Below, one piece after another: positions 7,121-12,843 of a stretch of 41,901 bases of DNA (its first letter is position 1; each line of letters opens with the position of its first letter). The notes under the pieces are model-generated. The model was not told the DNA's origin and made no database searches. It saw only the letters and a program-made list of their open reading frames with translations. The DNA lies in IMG/VR virus record IMGVR_UViG_3300023179_000211, positions 1 through 41,901 of that record. One strand, 5' to 3'. The DNA comes from a virus. A program made the translations under genes and the position numbers.

Positions 7121-8067
7121 AAGTATTATCAGCATCTAGAATTAAAACTCTCGAAACTTGTTCTTGGGTTTATTGGAATAATTATCATACTAAAGTTCCT
7201 CAAACTCAAAACGATGGGGCTCTTAGAGGTACAATCTGTCATACAATTTTTGAACTACTTTTAAATTCAAAACATAAAAATCATTTTAATAAAATAATAA
7301 AAAAGAATTCGATTAAAGGAAGTAAAGCGATTACAAGATTAGTTAAAATATTAAAGGCTAAAGTCGGATTAGATGAATCAAATTTTGATATTTTAGATCA
7401 AATGATTATGGTTGGTCTAAAACATGACTTTTTTGGCGAAAAAGATGGAAAAATTATTTCGCCAGAATATGCTTTCGAAATTAAAAATGATGATCCAAAA
7501 TATCATATTAAGGGTTTTATTGATAAGCCTATTAAATCAAAAAATAAAATGATTATAATTGACTATAAAAGCTCAAAGGCTAAATTTAGAGGAGATGATC
7601 TTGAGGCGAATATTCAAGCAATGATGTATAGTCTTGCTAGTAAAAAATTATGGCCTAAATTAAAACCTATAGTAAGATTTCTTTTTCTAAGATTTCCTAA
7701 GCAGCCTATTCAGGAACTTGAATTTACAGAAAATCAAATAAAGGGATTTGAGTATTATCTAGAACATATTAATGATTATATTAATAAATTTGATGAAAAC
7801 TCAGCCAAAGCAAATTTCGCTATAGATAACGATAAGAGTAAATGGATGTGCGGCGTAGGAAATTGGAGATGCCCCTACAGAGATTCTTATGAATATTATG
7901 TAAAATTAAATGAAAAAGGCGAAGTTTTAGAATCTAGTCTTGATAGTAAATTTAAAGATATAGAAGGATTTAAAATAGAAAAAAGAAAATACGAAGGATG
8001 TCCTAAGTTTAATATTATAAATAAAGATGAATTTTTAGACGTAAAACAAGATGAATTTTTAGATTGA
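7102..8067 (+). CDS. RecB/Cas4-type PD-(D/E)XK nuclease, possible Fe-S protein
   Basis: A 321-residue nuclease of the Cas4/AddB/RecB group. SASRIKTLETCSWVYWNNY at the N-terminus is the usual 'S.s.i..y..C...y' opening, and GALRGTICHTIFELLLN contains the motif-I His. The core is GFIDKP (Asp about residue 140), IIIDYKSSK (D-x-K about 154-156) and ANIQAMMYS (motif with Gln). Four cysteines at 20, 250, 257 and 300 are placed like the one-plus-three Fe-S ligands of Cas4/AddB. It probably resects or trims DNA ends in recombination or replication. It overlaps the primase-like gene by 19 bases. The last 13 residues are a duplicated DEFLD unit. Confidence 0.8.
   Translation: MESKSVKVLSASRIKTLETCSWVYWNNYHTKVPQTQNDGALRGTICHTIFELLLNSKHKNHFNKIIKKNSIKGSKAITRLVKILKAKVGLDESNFDILDQMIMVGLKHDFFGEKDGKIISPEYAFEIKNDDPKYHIKGFIDKPIKSKNKMIIIDYKSSKAKFRGDDLEANIQAMMYSLASKKLWPKLKPIVRFLFLRFPKQPIQELEFTENQIKGFEYYLEHINDYINKFDENSAKANFAIDNDKSKWMCGVGNWRCPYRDSYEYYVKLNEKGEVLESSLDSKFKDIEGFKIEKRKYEGCPKFNIINKDEFLDVKQDEFLD
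8026..8064 (+). repeat. 15-base direct repeat at the end of the nuclease gene
   Basis: Bases 8026-8040 and 8050-8064 are identical at 14 of 15 positions (GATGAATTTTTAGA core), giving two DEFLD units around the stop of the nuclease gene. It looks like a small slippage duplication. Confidence 0.6.
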
Positions 8068-8092
8068 TTAGTATTAAAATTTCACTTATAAT
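8064..8092 (+). promoter_or_regulatory. Sigma70-like promoter, predicted leaderless
   Basis: TTGATT at 8064-8069, overlapping the stop of the nuclease gene, and TATAAT at 8087-8092 with 17-base spacing. The ATG at 8100 follows after 7 bases, with no Shine-Dalgarno sequence. Confidence 0.65.
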
Positions 8093-8099
8093 AAATTAA

Positions 8100-8846
8100 A
8101 TGATACCATTATTCAAGTCTCATTATTCTTTAGGTAGATCAATTTTAACTTTAGAAGATAAAAATGAGCCTGATGATTATCCAGATTCTATAATACAAAT
8201 AGCAAAAGAAAATAGTTTAAAAGAAATATATCTCGTGGAGGATAACATGTCATCTTTTCTTGAAGCATATACTAATACAAAAAATAATAATATTAAATTA
8301 AACTACGGACTTAGAATTTCTGTAACTGAATCAATTAATGATAAAACAGATGAATCAAAACAAAAAACATCTAAAATAATAATATTTTTTAAAAATAAGA
8401 AAGGCCACGAAATTTTAACAAAGTTATTCAGCATAGGGGCAAAAACGGGATTTTATTATGAACCACGTTTGGACTATCAAACTATTAAAAAAAACTGGAC
8501 AGAAGACTTATTACTATGCATTCCATTCTATGATTCATTTATCTTTAATAATACTTTAAGAAATTACATATGTATTCCACAATTTGATTTTGTTAAACCA
8601 ATAATATTTATAGAAAATAATGACCTACCTTTTGATTTTATTATTAAAAATAAAATAGAAAAATATATACAAGAAAATAATTTAGAATTATATAATACTA
8701 AAAGTATTTATTATAATAAAAATAAAGATTTTAAAACATATTTAACATTTCGCTGCATTAATAATAGAAGTATTTTAAATAAACCAGAATTAGAACATAT
8801 GTCTAGTAATCAATTTTCTTTTGAAAGTTATTTGGGGGCAAAATAA
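8100..8846 (+). CDS. Separate, degenerate PHP domain of DNA polymerase III alpha subunit
   Basis: A 248-residue protein that reads as the N-terminal PHP domain of DnaE. FKSHYSLGRSILTL matches the opening 'LHxHSxYSLLDG', SIIQIAKENSLKEIYLVEDN matches 'kakelGmpAlAlTDHG', and the end (YNTKSIYYNKNKDFKTYLTF) matches the 'ATNDVHYL..eD.eahdvL' region. The metal ligands are poorly kept: HxH is KSH, TDHG is VEDN, and the GxE strand is GLR. It is therefore probably a structural domain without PHP phosphoesterase activity. The polymerase core is a separate gene at 9682, with the proofreading exonuclease gene between them. It starts directly after a leaderless-type promoter and its stop overlaps the next ATG by one base. 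Confidence 0.65.
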   Translation: MIPLFKSHYSLGRSILTLEDKNEPDDYPDSIIQIAKENSLKEIYLVEDNMSSFLEAYTNTKNNNIKLNYGLRISVTESINDKTDESKQKTSKIIIFFKNKKGHEILTKLFSIGAKTGFYYEPRLDYQTIKKNWTEDLLLCIPFYDSFIFNNTLRNYICIPQFDFVKPIIFIENNDLPFDFIIKNKIEKYIQENNLELYNTKSIYYNKNKDFKTYLTFRCINNRSILNKPELEHMSSNQFSFESYLGAK

Positions 8847-9484
8847 TGGACGAACATCTTTTAAGATATAATAAAGAAAAAAATTTAGTATTTATTGATT
8901 GCGAAACATTTAATCTTTGCTTAAATTTTTGTCATAATTTACCTTGGCAAATAGCAATGATTAAGGTAAAAGGAGATCAAAAAATTGATGAAAAAAATTT
9001 TTATTTAAAATGGCAAACGGATTTAAAGATCAGCCAAGATGCAGCAAAAATTACAAGATATGATCATAAAAAAGTTCAAAAAGAGGGACATGATCCTAAA
9101 GAGATATTTCCAACAATTAAAGATTGGCTAGATCACGCTGATTATATCATTGGTCATAATACTATTGGATTTGATTTATATATTATAAAAGAATATTATA
9201 AATTCATGGGTTGTAAATGGCAGCATTTAGTTAGTAAATTCATTGACACAAATGCCATCGCAAGGGGTATCAAGTATAATATACCATATAATCCCAAAGA
9301 AAATTTAACGGAATATCAATATAAAATATATCATACAAAAAAGAAAAATGTAAAAAGCTCTTTAACTGTTCTAGGAAAAGAAAATGGGATTGATCACGAT
9401 TATGATAAATTGCATGACGCGATAAATGATCTTGACTTAAATTTAAAAATATGGAATAAATTAAAATGGCAATTAGAGGTATAA
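8846..9484 (+). CDS. DnaQ-like 3'-5' exonuclease (DEDDh), probable proofreading subunit
   Basis: A 212-residue exonuclease with all DEDDh motifs: ExoI FIDCETF (Asp18, Glu20), ExoII IIGHNTIGFDLY (Asp near 108) and ExoIII HDAINDLDL (His and Asp near 190-195). This is the fold of the epsilon subunit and of other proofreading exonucleases. It sits between the PHP-domain gene and the polymerase core gene, so it most likely edits for this phage polymerase. The TAATG junction with the PHP gene and a GGGGG about 8 bases upstream support the start at 8846. An extra segment of about 30 residues (IPYNPKENLTEYQYKIYH) lies before ExoIII. Confidence 0.85.
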   Translation: MDEHLLRYNKEKNLVFIDCETFNLCLNFCHNLPWQIAMIKVKGDQKIDEKNFYLKWQTDLKISQDAAKITRYDHKKVQKEGHDPKEIFPTIKDWLDHADYIIGHNTIGFDLYIIKEYYKFMGCKWQHLVSKFIDTNAIARGIKYNIPYNPKENLTEYQYKIYHTKKKNVKSSLTVLGKENGIDHDYDKLHDAINDLDLNLKIWNKLKWQLEV

Positions 9485-9485
9485 T

Positions 9486-9701
9486 ATGGCATCTTTAGAC
9501 GATATATATGATATGGTACAAAAATTAGACGATTCTAATATAGAATATCTTTTAATTACCATACAAAAGGGGAAAAAAAATGGGAAAGCAGACGTTTTTT
9601 ACTCTTTAAAAGACAAAAATTCTATGAAAATATTAACTCACGGATTAAACCAATTTACAAAAGAAATAGATAAACTAGAAGATGAAGGAAAATTTGAATA
9701 A
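9486..9701 (+). CDS. Small protein in the split-polymerase operon, unknown function
   Basis: A 71-residue protein, not recognised. It has an N-terminal helix (SLDDIYDMVQKLDDSN), two or three strands (YLLITIQKG, KADVFYSL) and a C-terminal helix (ILTHGLNQFTKEIDKLE). It starts one base after the exonuclease stop, with GAGG in a suitable place upstream, and ends inside the polymerase gene (20-base overlap), so it is translated together with the exonuclease and polymerase. The arrangement makes a small replisome accessory protein plausible, but no motif proves it. Its strand-helix pattern resembles the 92-residue protein at 3770. Confidence 0.65.
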   Translation: MASLDDIYDMVQKLDDSNIEYLLITIQKGKKNGKADVFYSLKDKNSMKILTHGLNQFTKEIDKLEDEGKFE

Positions 9702-12276
9702 TACTCTAGAATATAAATCGTTTTCTTCTAAATTTGAAAACTTAGATTTAGGTTTGCATGGAGTAAGGCTTCCAGAATTTAAAATAGATTCAACTTTAAA
9801 AAGAAGTTTGAATCTTAGTGAAGATGTATCAAATTATGATTTTCTTCGCGGTCTAGCTTTAAATGGATTTAAAGATTTGAAAATAGATAAAAACTTACCA
9901 GAATATAAAAAATACGTAGATCGAGCAAAACACGAATTAGAGACATTAAAAGAGTTAGGCTTTATTGATTATATTCTGCTTGTTTGGGATGTAATTAATT
10001 TTTGTAAAACCAACGATATTCCGATAGGTTTAGGTAGAGGTTCTGCCGCAGGATCTTTAATTCTCTATCTTATTGGAGTAACTAGAATCGATCCAGTTAA
10101 ATACAATCTTTATTTTGAAAGATTTATATCAAAGATACGAGCTAAAAAACAAGTTATTGATGCAGTAACCTATTTGGATGGCAGTTTAATGTGCGACGTG
10201 GATCTTGATATTTGCTATTATAATCGCCATAAAGTATTAGAATATCTTGAAAATAAATTTAAAGGAAAAACAAGTAAAATTTTAACTCTTAATACTCTTA
10301 GCGGCAAACTTCTTATTAAAGAATGCGGAAAAATTGTTGGTGAAAAAACAGAAGAAGAAATGACCACGATATCTTCATTAATTCCAAAAGTATTCGGACA
10401 GGTAAAAGACATTACATCAGCCTATGAGGATATAATTAAATTTAAAGAATGGTGCGATGAAAATAAAGAAGTTTATCAAATCGCTTTAAAACTAAGAGAT
10501 TTAATTAAGAATAAAGGCGTACATCCATCTGGAGTTTTACTTTCATATGACGATTTAGAAAAAGTATGTCCAACAGAATTCTCTTCTGACAAAGAACCAG
10601 TTTCAAGTTTTGATATGAATTGGGTCAGTTTATTTAATATCAAACTAGATATCTTAGGGTTGAGAAGCGTATCTGTTGTAGATGATGTTTGTAAAAATAT
10701 TGGAATTAAAGTTCAAGATATCAATTTAAATGACGAATCAATCTATAGAAATCTTCAAGAACTAAAAACTCCACACGGATTATTTCAAATTGAAGCAGAT
10801 ACAAATTTTAAAGTATGCCAAAAAGTAAAACCTAAAAATTTAGAAGAATTAAGCGGTGTTCTGGCACTTGCTAGACCTGGAGCGCTGCAATTCGTTGATA
10901 AATACGCAAAGTATACAAATAGTGGCGAGTACGAAGGCATTCATCCATTTTTTGATGATATTTTAAAACAAACTGGTGGCGTTGCGCTTTATCAAGAACA
11001 ATTAATGCAAATGGCTCATAAAATTGGTTATACATTAGATGAAGCAGAAATTTTAAGAAGAATTGTCGGAAAAAAGAAAACGGACGAAATTAAAGCTTGG
11101 AAAAAAAAGATTGAATCAAAGATTAAACAAAATAAACTAGCAAAAGAAATAGGAGAAATATTGTGGAAAATCATGGAAGATTCTGCAAACTATTCATTTA
11201 ATAAATCTCATTCTTTAGCGTATGCAGCTTTAGCGGCGGTAACAATTTATCTTAAATTTAACTACCCACAGCAATTTTTCTTATCTCTTTTAAAAATGAG
11301 TAGAAATGAACCCGATCCGATAGGTGAAATATCTAAAATTCAAAAAGAAATGCATGAATTTAATATTCAACTTTTACCACCCCATATAATTAAATCTACT
11401 ATGGATTTTTCAATTGAAGAAAAAGATATAAGATTTGGTTTATTATCAATTAAGGGAATCTCTGATAAATCAATAGAAAAATTAAATAGTTTTAGAAATA
11501 AATATTCAAATAAATTTGAAATATTTCAAGCTGCAGAAGAAGCTGATTTAAATATTGGAGCATTATCAGCTTTAATTCAAGCGGGCGCATTAAGTGGATT
11601 TAATCAATCTAGAAGTAAAATTGTATTAGAAGCGCAACTTTGGAATATTTTAACTTCAAAAGAAAAAAGATATGTGATCTCATTTGCCGAAAAATTTGAT
11701 TATGATTTAATTAAAATTATTAAGCATCTCAATAAATTCACAGATGAAAAAAGTCATATTGTTATTAAAGATAATAGATTAAAAACTATTAAAAATAAAT
11801 ACGAACCTTATTTACAAATATATAATCAAAATAGCAAAAGCGAAAGTTTTGCGAATTGGTATTATGAAAAGAAACTCTTGGGCTATACATATAATAAATC
11901 TTTAAAAGAGATTTTTTCTGAAAAAAGAGAGAATTTAAATTATATTTCAGATATTATTGATATTCCAATAAATACAAAGATTGCATTTGTTGGTCAAATT
12001 GACGAAGAATTTTCTGGAGTTTCAAAAAATGAAAAAAAGACTAGATATGTTAGATTAAAAATATCAGATGAAACTGGATATATAAATGTATTAATATTTA
12101 ATGATAATATTGAAAATAATAAATTATTAAATAATAAAAGTTTTGAAGAGGGAAATATTGTTATTGTTAAAGGCTTAAAAAGAGACGATTGTATTTTTGG
12201 AGATCTAGTGGCGATTCAAGATCAACAAATTTATATGAAATTAAATGATTTAAAAAAGATTGATAAAAATAATTGA
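9682..12276 (+). CDS. dnaE: DNA polymerase III alpha subunit core (DnaE-like, lacking the PHP domain)
   Basis: An 864-residue bacterial-type replicative polymerase without its PHP domain; DnaE is normally about 1100-1200 residues. It begins where DnaE follows PHP (LHGVRLPEF, then ELETLKELGFIDYILLVWDV). The palm has IPIGLGRGSAAGSLILYLIG and FERFI, the metal-binding acidic cluster CDVDLDIC (Asp172, 174, 176) and the third acid in KLDILGL (Asp323). The fingers contain ALYQEQLMQMAHKIGYTLDEA and FNKSHSLAYA. A helix-hairpin-helix region (LLSIKGISDKSIEKL, LSALIQAGALSGF) and a C-terminal OB fold (IAFVGQIDEEF to LKRDDCIFGD) follow. An insertion of about 15 residues separates FERFI from the acidic cluster. 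All catalytic residues are present. No obvious clamp-binding QxxLF is visible near the C-terminus. Confidence 0.88.
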   Translation: MKENLNNTLEYKSFSSKFENLDLGLHGVRLPEFKIDSTLKRSLNLSEDVSNYDFLRGLALNGFKDLKIDKNLPEYKKYVDRAKHELETLKELGFIDYILLVWDVINFCKTNDIPIGLGRGSAAGSLILYLIGVTRIDPVKYNLYFERFISKIRAKKQVIDAVTYLDGSLMCDVDLDICYYNRHKVLEYLENKFKGKTSKILTLNTLSGKLLIKECGKIVGEKTEEEMTTISSLIPKVFGQVKDITSAYEDIIKFKEWCDENKEVYQIALKLRDLIKNKGVHPSGVLLSYDDLEKVCPTEFSSDKEPVSSFDMNWVSLFNIKLDILGLRSVSVVDDVCKNIGIKVQDINLNDESIYRNLQELKTPHGLFQIEADTNFKVCQKVKPKNLEELSGVLALARPGALQFVDKYAKYTNSGEYEGIHPFFDDILKQTGGVALYQEQLMQMAHKIGYTLDEAEILRRIVGKKKTDEIKAWKKKIESKIKQNKLAKEIGEILWKIMEDSANYSFNKSHSLAYAALAAVTIYLKFNYPQQFFLSLLKMSRNEPDPIGEISKIQKEMHEFNIQLLPPHIIKSTMDFSIEEKDIRFGLLSIKGISDKSIEKLNSFRNKYSNKFEIFQAAEEADLNIGALSALIQAGALSGFNQSRSKIVLEAQLWNILTSKEKRYVISFAEKFDYDLIKIIKHLNKFTDEKSHIVIKDNRLKTIKNKYEPYLQIYNQNSKSESFANWYYEKKLLGYTYNKSLKEIFSEKRENLNYISDIIDIPINTKIAFVGQIDEEFSGVSKNEKKTRYVRLKISDETGYINVLIFNDNIENNKLLNNKSFEEGNIVIVKGLKRDDCIFGDLVAIQDQQIYMKLNDLKKIDKNN

Positions 12277-12309: not shown

Positions 12310-12843
12310 ATGATATCATTTTACAAACCTAATAGTAAAAATACCGGCACAGCCTGTAGCTTCAGCGTTAATCCTAAAGATAGTTCAATTTGGAGTTCAT
12401 TAATCAAACAGAGCGGTTGGAATGAAAAAACTAAAACTGGTTCATTTTTAGAAAATAAAAATAATCCACAAAAAAGCGCGAGAATTAAGTTTTCTCAAAC
12501 TGAAGTAGCGGGTTTATTAGAATGTTTAGATAAAAATGTTGAATTTTCAGCTTATCATTCTTCTGAACAGCAAATAACTAAAATTAAATTTGCTCCATAT
12601 ATAAAAGAGGATAAACAAGTAGGTTTTTCTTATAGCGTTCAAAAAGAAAGCAAAGATAATATTGAAAATAAACAATCCTATTTAATAGGATTTTATTTTA
12701 ATGAAGCTAGACTTTTGAAAGAGTTTTTATCATATTCTTTATCATCAATCTTTGAAGCTCAAAGAGTGGAATTAATTAAAAAAATTAAAAATTCTCCAAA
12801 AGAAAAAAAATCAGAATCACAAGAAGATAGCGAACTTTGGTAA
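12310..12843 (+). CDS. Candidate single-stranded-DNA-binding protein
   Basis: A 177-residue protein with no family that I can name firmly. Three features suggest an SSB-like role. It opens the unit directly after the polymerase gene. Its body alternates strands (ARIKFSQTEVAGLLECLDKN, VEFSAYHSSEQQITKIKF, VGFSYSVQKES) before a helix (FNEARLLKEFLSYSLSSIF), a layout like PC4/Whirly-type DNA-binding folds. The C-terminus is a lysine-rich linker followed by an acidic tip with a final aromatic (SESQEDSELW), as in SSB, T7 gp2.5 and T4 gp32. No classical OB-fold SSB gene is visible in the window. It could equally be an unrelated structural or regulatory protein. Confidence 0.4.
   Translation: MISFYKPNSKNTGTACSFSVNPKDSSIWSSLIKQSGWNEKTKTGSFLENKNNPQKSARIKFSQTEVAGLLECLDKNVEFSAYHSSEQQITKIKFAPYIKEDKQVGFSYSVQKESKDNIENKQSYLIGFYFNEARLLKEFLSYSLSSIFEAQRVELIKKIKNSPKEKKSESQEDSELW

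Follow-up and report, generated by a model that had tools for sequence, protein, structure and literature searches.

The PHP domain has been described as invariably present in C-family DNA polymerases, on the same chain as the polymerase itself (PMC3666897), and surveys of the bacterial enzymes treat it as a part of that chain (PMC3919608; PMC12926913). An active PHP nuclease carries nine metal ligands, HHDHEH[C/H]DH (PMC12926913); the loss of these ligands goes along with a separate exonuclease, and in E. coli Arg10 and Arg203 sit at metal positions (PMC3666897). The job of such a dead PHP is poorly understood, while in E. coli Pol III the domain is a major structural element, mutations in which reduce stability and activity (PMC3666897). 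Residues 1-270 of E. coli alpha form a well-behaved fragment that binds the exonuclease epsilon, the C-terminal tail of which wraps round and binds the PHP domain (PMC3642679). Here we describe a locus of the virus record IMGVR_UViG_3300023179_000211, analysed as one stretch of 41,901 nucleotides (the window), in which a PHP-like protein and the rest of a DnaE-type polymerase are encoded by separate genes, with an exonuclease gene and a gene for a 71-aa protein between them (Table 1).

The four open reading frames (ORFs), of 248, 212, 71 and 864 aa, were recovered at the positions at which an earlier note on this sequence had placed them. Relatives were gathered by seven scans of viral contigs, one scan of genome contigs and the reading of fetched loci, which together gave 356 loci with both PHP and polymerase core (232 distinct PHP and 241 distinct core sequences, some loci sharing a contig). 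PHP, exonuclease and core follow each other in this order as separate ORFs in 356/356 loci, in a set in which the identity of the core to that of the window drops to about 44%. The earlier note had regarded a closely related phage with one fused gene as a sign that the split was a sequencing error; such a gene was found in 0/356 loci, and sequencing error or frameshift is ruled out by the 356 concordant loci. The sequences point to a large family of uncultured aquatic phages that makes its DnaE-type polymerase in separate pieces. Each of the 17 contigs longer than 100 kb has a single PHP and a single DnaE core, and neither a family A or B polymerase (including DNA_pol_B) nor a beta clamp (PF00712) was detected in them at E<=0.001. 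In an unrooted tree, from which the mislabelled rows L195, L197 and L240 were left out, 29/29 split cores fell on one side of a branch of length 1.3 with support of 100/100, as a single deep clade that includes neither bacterial DnaE nor the fused phage enzymes.

The 248-aa protein matches Pfam PHP (2.5e-10) and columns 62-282 of the DNA polymerase profile phrog_405 (2.7e-20), and a PHP profile built from 27 relatives matched residues 49-253 of Taq Pol III alpha at 3e-12. Its AlphaFold (AF2) model had a predicted local distance difference test score (pLDDT) of 87 and a predicted template modelling score (pTM) of 0.86. The first 20 PDB matches of this model in Foldseek were all C-family polymerases, the best being 3e0d (E 6e-11, TMq 0.73); the best folds were those of the PHP domain in Pol III alpha of Taq and of E. 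coli, and the crystals of the E. coli alpha-epsilon chimera, 4gx8 and 4gx9, were also matched. Thus the structural likeness to PHP, the absence of which had been set beforehand as grounds for rejecting the assignment, was found, and the protein is a complete PHP domain of the DnaE-type fold. The gene is under purifying selection, with a ratio of nonsynonymous to synonymous substitution rates (dN/dS) of 0.065 at the median and 0.128 at the maximum. A phage-specific motif, PFYDS, is invariant in the free PHP proteins.

The metal sites were examined at the nine ligand positions tabulated in PMC3666897, by aligning the phage proteins with E. coli DnaE and with four phage or bacterial PHPs in which the sites are intact. 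None of the nine ligands is reliably kept, either in the window or in 137 distinct relatives. In the window, sites 1 to 9 fall on a gap or L4, K6, E19 (unsure), D48, R72, K92, F143, S202 and Y204. The replacements are themselves conserved: site 2 is K or R in 133/137 distinct sequences, site 5 is R or K and site 8 S or T in every one of the 137, site 6 is K in 135/137, site 7 is F in 137/137, and site 9 is mostly Y or F. Site 3 is mostly acidic, its placement being unsure since it lies beside an alignment gap, and at site 4 the residues are acidic or amides (D48 in the window, beside E47). The basic residues at metal positions resemble the case of Arg10 and Arg203 in E. coli, the PHP of which is also degenerate, with five of nine ligands replaced against nine of nine in the phage family. 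The earlier note was right that the domain is degenerate, but its metal sites are not just mostly lost, as it had stated; all nine are replaced, in the distinct relatives too, and its reading of HxH as KSH was out of register, the second histidine aligning with K6. By alignment, the loss is total, not partial, and the free PHP is predicted to be catalytically dead; its acting as an active nuclease is ruled out, no ligand being kept.

The 864-aa protein begins where the PHP protein leaves off. It matches columns 322-1088 of phrog_405 (5.7e-156) and the Pfam families DNA_pol3_alpha (5.8e-56), fingers (5.3e-35) and HHH_6 (4.6e-17), together with a weak OB match, and its profile aligned with Taq DnaE over residues 380-951 at 4.6e-107. 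The order palm/thumb, fingers, HhH and OB is that of DnaE, with three catalytic acids. As the earlier note had held, these acids are kept: D172, D174 and D323 do not vary among 20 representatives, and the D-x-D and K[LFM]D.LGL motifs are present in 228/228 distinct cores. With its domains from palm to OB (the last a weak match) and its invariant acids, the core is catalytically complete. A search by simple regular expressions for an internal clamp motif after HhH, Q.[SD][LM]F, matched 10/228 distinct cores, without wide conservation or a convincing hit. The median dN/dS of the core is 0.077. The PHP protein reaches as far as the stretch that aligns with residue 253 of Taq, and on the shared phage polymerase profile the core picks up some 40 columns further on. 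The break therefore lies past the end of PHP and before the palm begins, and no more than a short linker is missing, which bears out the proposed split at the PHP/palm boundary. Two relatives, L193 and L209, have a core that spans two ORFs (148+731 aa and 593+393 aa, respectively), possibly through a second split, an intron or a frameshift.

The gene between the two was taken by the earlier note for a DEDDh exonuclease, and this holds: the 212-aa protein matches Pfam RNase_T (4.5e-11) and phrog_192, a DNA polymerase exonuclease subunit (6e-24), and D18, E20, D110, H190 and D195 are invariant in 21 representatives. Its median dN/dS is 0.057, and its best PDB match was the PolC-type exonuclease of T. 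maritima, 2p1j (3.7e-7). We infer that it is the proofreader of the DnaE core. All 218 distinct exonucleases with a recognised motif III stop exactly 17 residues past its Asp, against 76 in E. coli epsilon; the interface between the epsilon tail and PHP is therefore missing. By the definition in PMC3666897 the phage enzyme is not a bona fide DnaQ epsilon, DEDDh being present and the PHP-binding tail absent.

The 71-aa protein (SML) gave no significant match in Pfam, PHROG or PDB, and its model (AF2 pLDDT 86) gave no fold match at E<=0.001. Its gene was detected in 160/356 loci and lies downstream of the core in L129 and L130. SML is an accessory protein in part of the family; a fixed subunit, a theta-like protein or a linker is ruled out, given its absence or relocation in many loci and the lack of a fold match. 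For the same reason, that it is absent or moved in many relatives, the tetrameric replicase offered as an option in the earlier note is disfavoured.

Taken together, the most probable explanation is, in our judgement, a three-chain DnaE-type replicase, in which PHP has come away from the polymerase and is kept as a structural subunit, translated on its own and catalytically dead. The free PHP would most likely bind the core again without a covalent link, on its palm/thumb face, the site of the covalent PHP in E. coli and Taq, and would there stabilise the polymerase core, while the active DEDDh exonuclease encoded between the two would supply proofreading. A structural role is favoured because PHP is present in 356/356 loci, in a fixed order and never fused, and because its dN/dS (0.065, versus 0.077 for the core), its fold match and the split at a domain boundary all agree with it. 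The lack of a second detected polymerase in the 17 long contigs, the overlapping or abutting genes and the published findings on PHP in E. coli Pol III point the same way. Docking on the core is favoured because the gene has been kept on its own for so long and always with the core, save in L073. The formation of a complex by PHP, exonuclease and core, and the docking site of PHP, are suggested by analogy with the bacterial enzymes. As happens in Pol III and PolC, the exonuclease probably binds beside PHP, though without an epsilon tail, and it is plausible that PHP bridges exonuclease and core, as the earlier note had proposed; if PHP does hold the exonuclease, the contact would not be made via the face that epsilon is known to use. 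A stronger version, an obligate three-subunit replicase in which the dead free PHP is the essential assembly factor that holds the tail-less exonuclease against the polymerase, can be put forward tentatively, its chances being slightly below even.

Several observations weigh against this three-chain replicase. The exonuclease has no epsilon-type C-terminal tail. In many loci unrelated genes separate the PHP and exonuclease genes, and strict co-translation is therefore not required. L073 has a core with 4 kb of upstream sequence and neither PHP nor exonuclease; it may be rearranged or chimeric. Finally, in a mutual-information analysis of coevolution (six genes, 147 loci, effective N 26), the enrichment was 0.99 for PHP and core and 0.49 for PHP and exonuclease, which is not above the control pairs (unrelated pairs reached 1.98); the analysis gave no usable signal.

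The alternative that survives best, although we consider it unlikely, is that PHP is a structural scaffold on the core and not a bridge, with the exonuclease using another surface (the core, or a host or phage clamp) or acting freely. The ending of the exonuclease 17 residues past motif III in 218/218 sequences, the PolC-type exonuclease as its closest solved relative and the lack of a coevolution excess between PHP and exonuclease (effective N 26) would all fit this arrangement, but the exonuclease lies beside PHP in the E. coli complex and in PolC (PMC3642679), and its gene stands between PHP and core in every locus. Considerably less probable is that the free PHP no longer belongs to the replicase and serves another purpose, such as that of a decoy for the host exonuclease or Pol III, with the core working without it. 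A separate gene is free to evolve separately, minimal Pol III modules without PHP have been reported in jumbo phages (PMC7824862), and PFYDS is a phage-specific invariant motif of the free protein; yet PHP strictly co-occurs with the core in a fixed order, its dN/dS is as low as that of the core, it still has the terminal segment that in DnaE runs on towards the palm, and PHP is called invariable in C-family polymerases (PMC3666897). That the split is an artefact, an ordinary fused dnaE broken up by frameshift, mis-assembly or an intein, is hardly credible, for although other phages do have a fragmented DnaE with HNH or small ORFs between the pieces, the 356 loci from many independent assemblies share one layout, unrelated genes stand between the split pieces, and no intein domain was found in the PHP and core proteins at Pfam E<=1, a scan by which intein trans-splicing is ruled out.

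The closest bacterial counterpart of the proposed replicase is DnaE1-type Pol III alpha with epsilon (E. coli, Taq), which has the same core domain order, catalytic Asp residues, PHP fold and separate DEDDh exonuclease. However, PHP is covalently joined to the polymerase in E. coli and Taq and has its own gene in 356/356 phage loci, and neither the C-terminal tail nor the clamp motif of E. coli epsilon was found in the phage exonuclease. PolC, the Gram-positive replicase, also has a PHP-associated DEDDh exonuclease, and the nearest solved relative of the phage enzyme is of PolC type; in PolC, however, the exonuclease is inserted within PHP on one chain, whereas in the phages PHP is continuous, the exonuclease has a gene of its own, and the core is DnaE-type by profile match and C-terminal OB. 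A fragmented PolC is ruled out by the continuous PHP and the DnaE-type core.

Among phages, the cultured Krampusvirus-type Microbacterium phages Haunter (gp56/gp57) and Poultress (gp55/gp56) have PHP (345 aa) and core (766-767 aa) as adjacent genes, split at L239:2968-6316 and L248:1836-5187, respectively, with both genes of each pair annotated as DnaE-like DNA polymerase III alpha. Unlike the window family, where no ligand is reliably kept, the Haunter PHP has all nine ligands intact, and in neither phage does an exonuclease gene lie between PHP and core. Their separate place in the tree (100/100) argues for an independent split, and because its nine ligands are intact the Haunter PHP may itself be a proofreader acting in trans. 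The group 2.2 jumbo phages also carry a C-family polymerase in separate proteins (PMC7824862), but their split Pol III is minimal, without PHP and other domains, and is cut inside the catalytic module; its genes are distant from each other and accompany a family B polymerase (PMC7824862), whereas the window family has PHP and no DNA_pol_B was detected. The intein-split DnaE of cyanobacteria is likewise encoded by two genes, but the phage break is at the PHP/palm boundary and intein sequence was not found. Our search of the open-licence literature turned up no published account of a dead PHP encoded on its own next to a phage DnaE core, nor of the Microbacterium-phage PHP/palm split with an intact PHP.

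The three genes overlap or abut in many loci, and the exonuclease, always between PHP and core, is not always contiguous with them, many relatives having inserts. The inserted genes are varied at the PHP-exonuclease junction and occur less often at the exonuclease-core junction; at these junctions they include genes for LAGLIDADG (L184:5561-6763, L212:5189-5968) and HNH (L183:4135-5049) endonucleases, a cupin gene, and a Clp-protease-like gene between exonuclease and core (L226:5330-5998). In 46 loci (L015:4624-5145 and 45 others), a 173-aa protein family with no assigned function is encoded between PHP and exonuclease. DnaE genes are broken elsewhere in other phages, sometimes around an HNH gene (KLEB27-3, phiT1, phiST, Cuke). 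A possible history of the split, which would fit these observations with the tree being unrooted, is that mobile endonucleases broke the gene and the pieces then became fixed as separate subunits.

Some further records were noted during the survey. In L195 (Alicyclobacillus phage KKP_3916) DnaE is read as at least 4 ORFs (422, 158, 201 and 321+ aa), annotated as hypothetical proteins. L235 (OQ572403.1), L233 (MT837297.1) and L234 (MT836213.1), filed as phage, carry apparent bacterial chromosomal dnaE regions, and ORFs in a row in L235 resemble lpxB, rnhB, dnaE and accA. Relatives were present in contigs binned with Flavobacteriaceae, Verrucomicrobiales and others, which leaves the host unsettled.

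The window has a G+C content of about 0.28 and siphovirus-type tail genes (lambda J-like, tape measure). Its replication block runs in the order UvsX-like recombinase, DnaB helicase, ThyX, primase, PD-(D/E)XK nuclease, PHP, exonuclease, 71-aa protein and core. In the sequence TAATG, the last base of the PHP stop codon is also the first base of the exonuclease start codon, an overlap through which the two genes are probably translationally coupled, and the SML and core genes overlap by 20 nt. No obvious Shine-Dalgarno sequence was seen upstream of the PHP start (8061-8120).

Table 1. Features of the polymerase locus and its downstream neighbour in the window
Feature	Position	Strand	Basis
Stand-alone pseudo-PHP, 248 aa, corresponding to the N-terminal PHP domain of DnaE	8100..8846	+	Pfam, PHROG, fold, ligands, dN/dS
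DEDDh 3'-5' exonuclease (EXO), 212 aa, without epsilon-type C-terminal tail	8846..9484	+	Pfam, PHROG, catalytic residues
71-aa accessory protein (SML), predicted helix-strand-strand-helix	9486..9701	+	AF2 model, locus counts
DnaE core, 864 aa: palm/thumb, fingers, HhH, OB; without PHP domain	9682..12276	+	Pfam, profile match
TAATG stop/start overlap of PHP and exonuclease genes	8844..8848	+	sequence
Conserved 177-aa protein with an acidic tail and a terminal Trp; candidate for a single-strand DNA-binding protein (SSB)	12310..12843	+	103/141 homologues end in W

The 177-aa protein encoded downstream of the core gave no match in family and PDB searches. A terminal Trp after an acidic tail was seen in 103/141 distinct homologues (DSELW in the window; a relative is, for example, L016:8631-9176). 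An acidic tail with a terminal Trp is also found in some phage single-strand DNA-binding proteins. The protein is a candidate for a new SSB family, and its gene probably belongs to the same replication operon as the polymerase genes.

If the three-chain replicase is true, a domain that has been called invariably fused in C-family polymerases has become a separate subunit in these phages. The genes for a tail-less exonuclease of the proofreading type and for a DnaE-type polymerase occur together in hundreds of phage contigs, so the two enzymes may be coupled through an interface of another kind. A naturally separate PHP would make the structural and exonuclease-recruiting roles of this domain measurable, by adding or leaving out one subunit.

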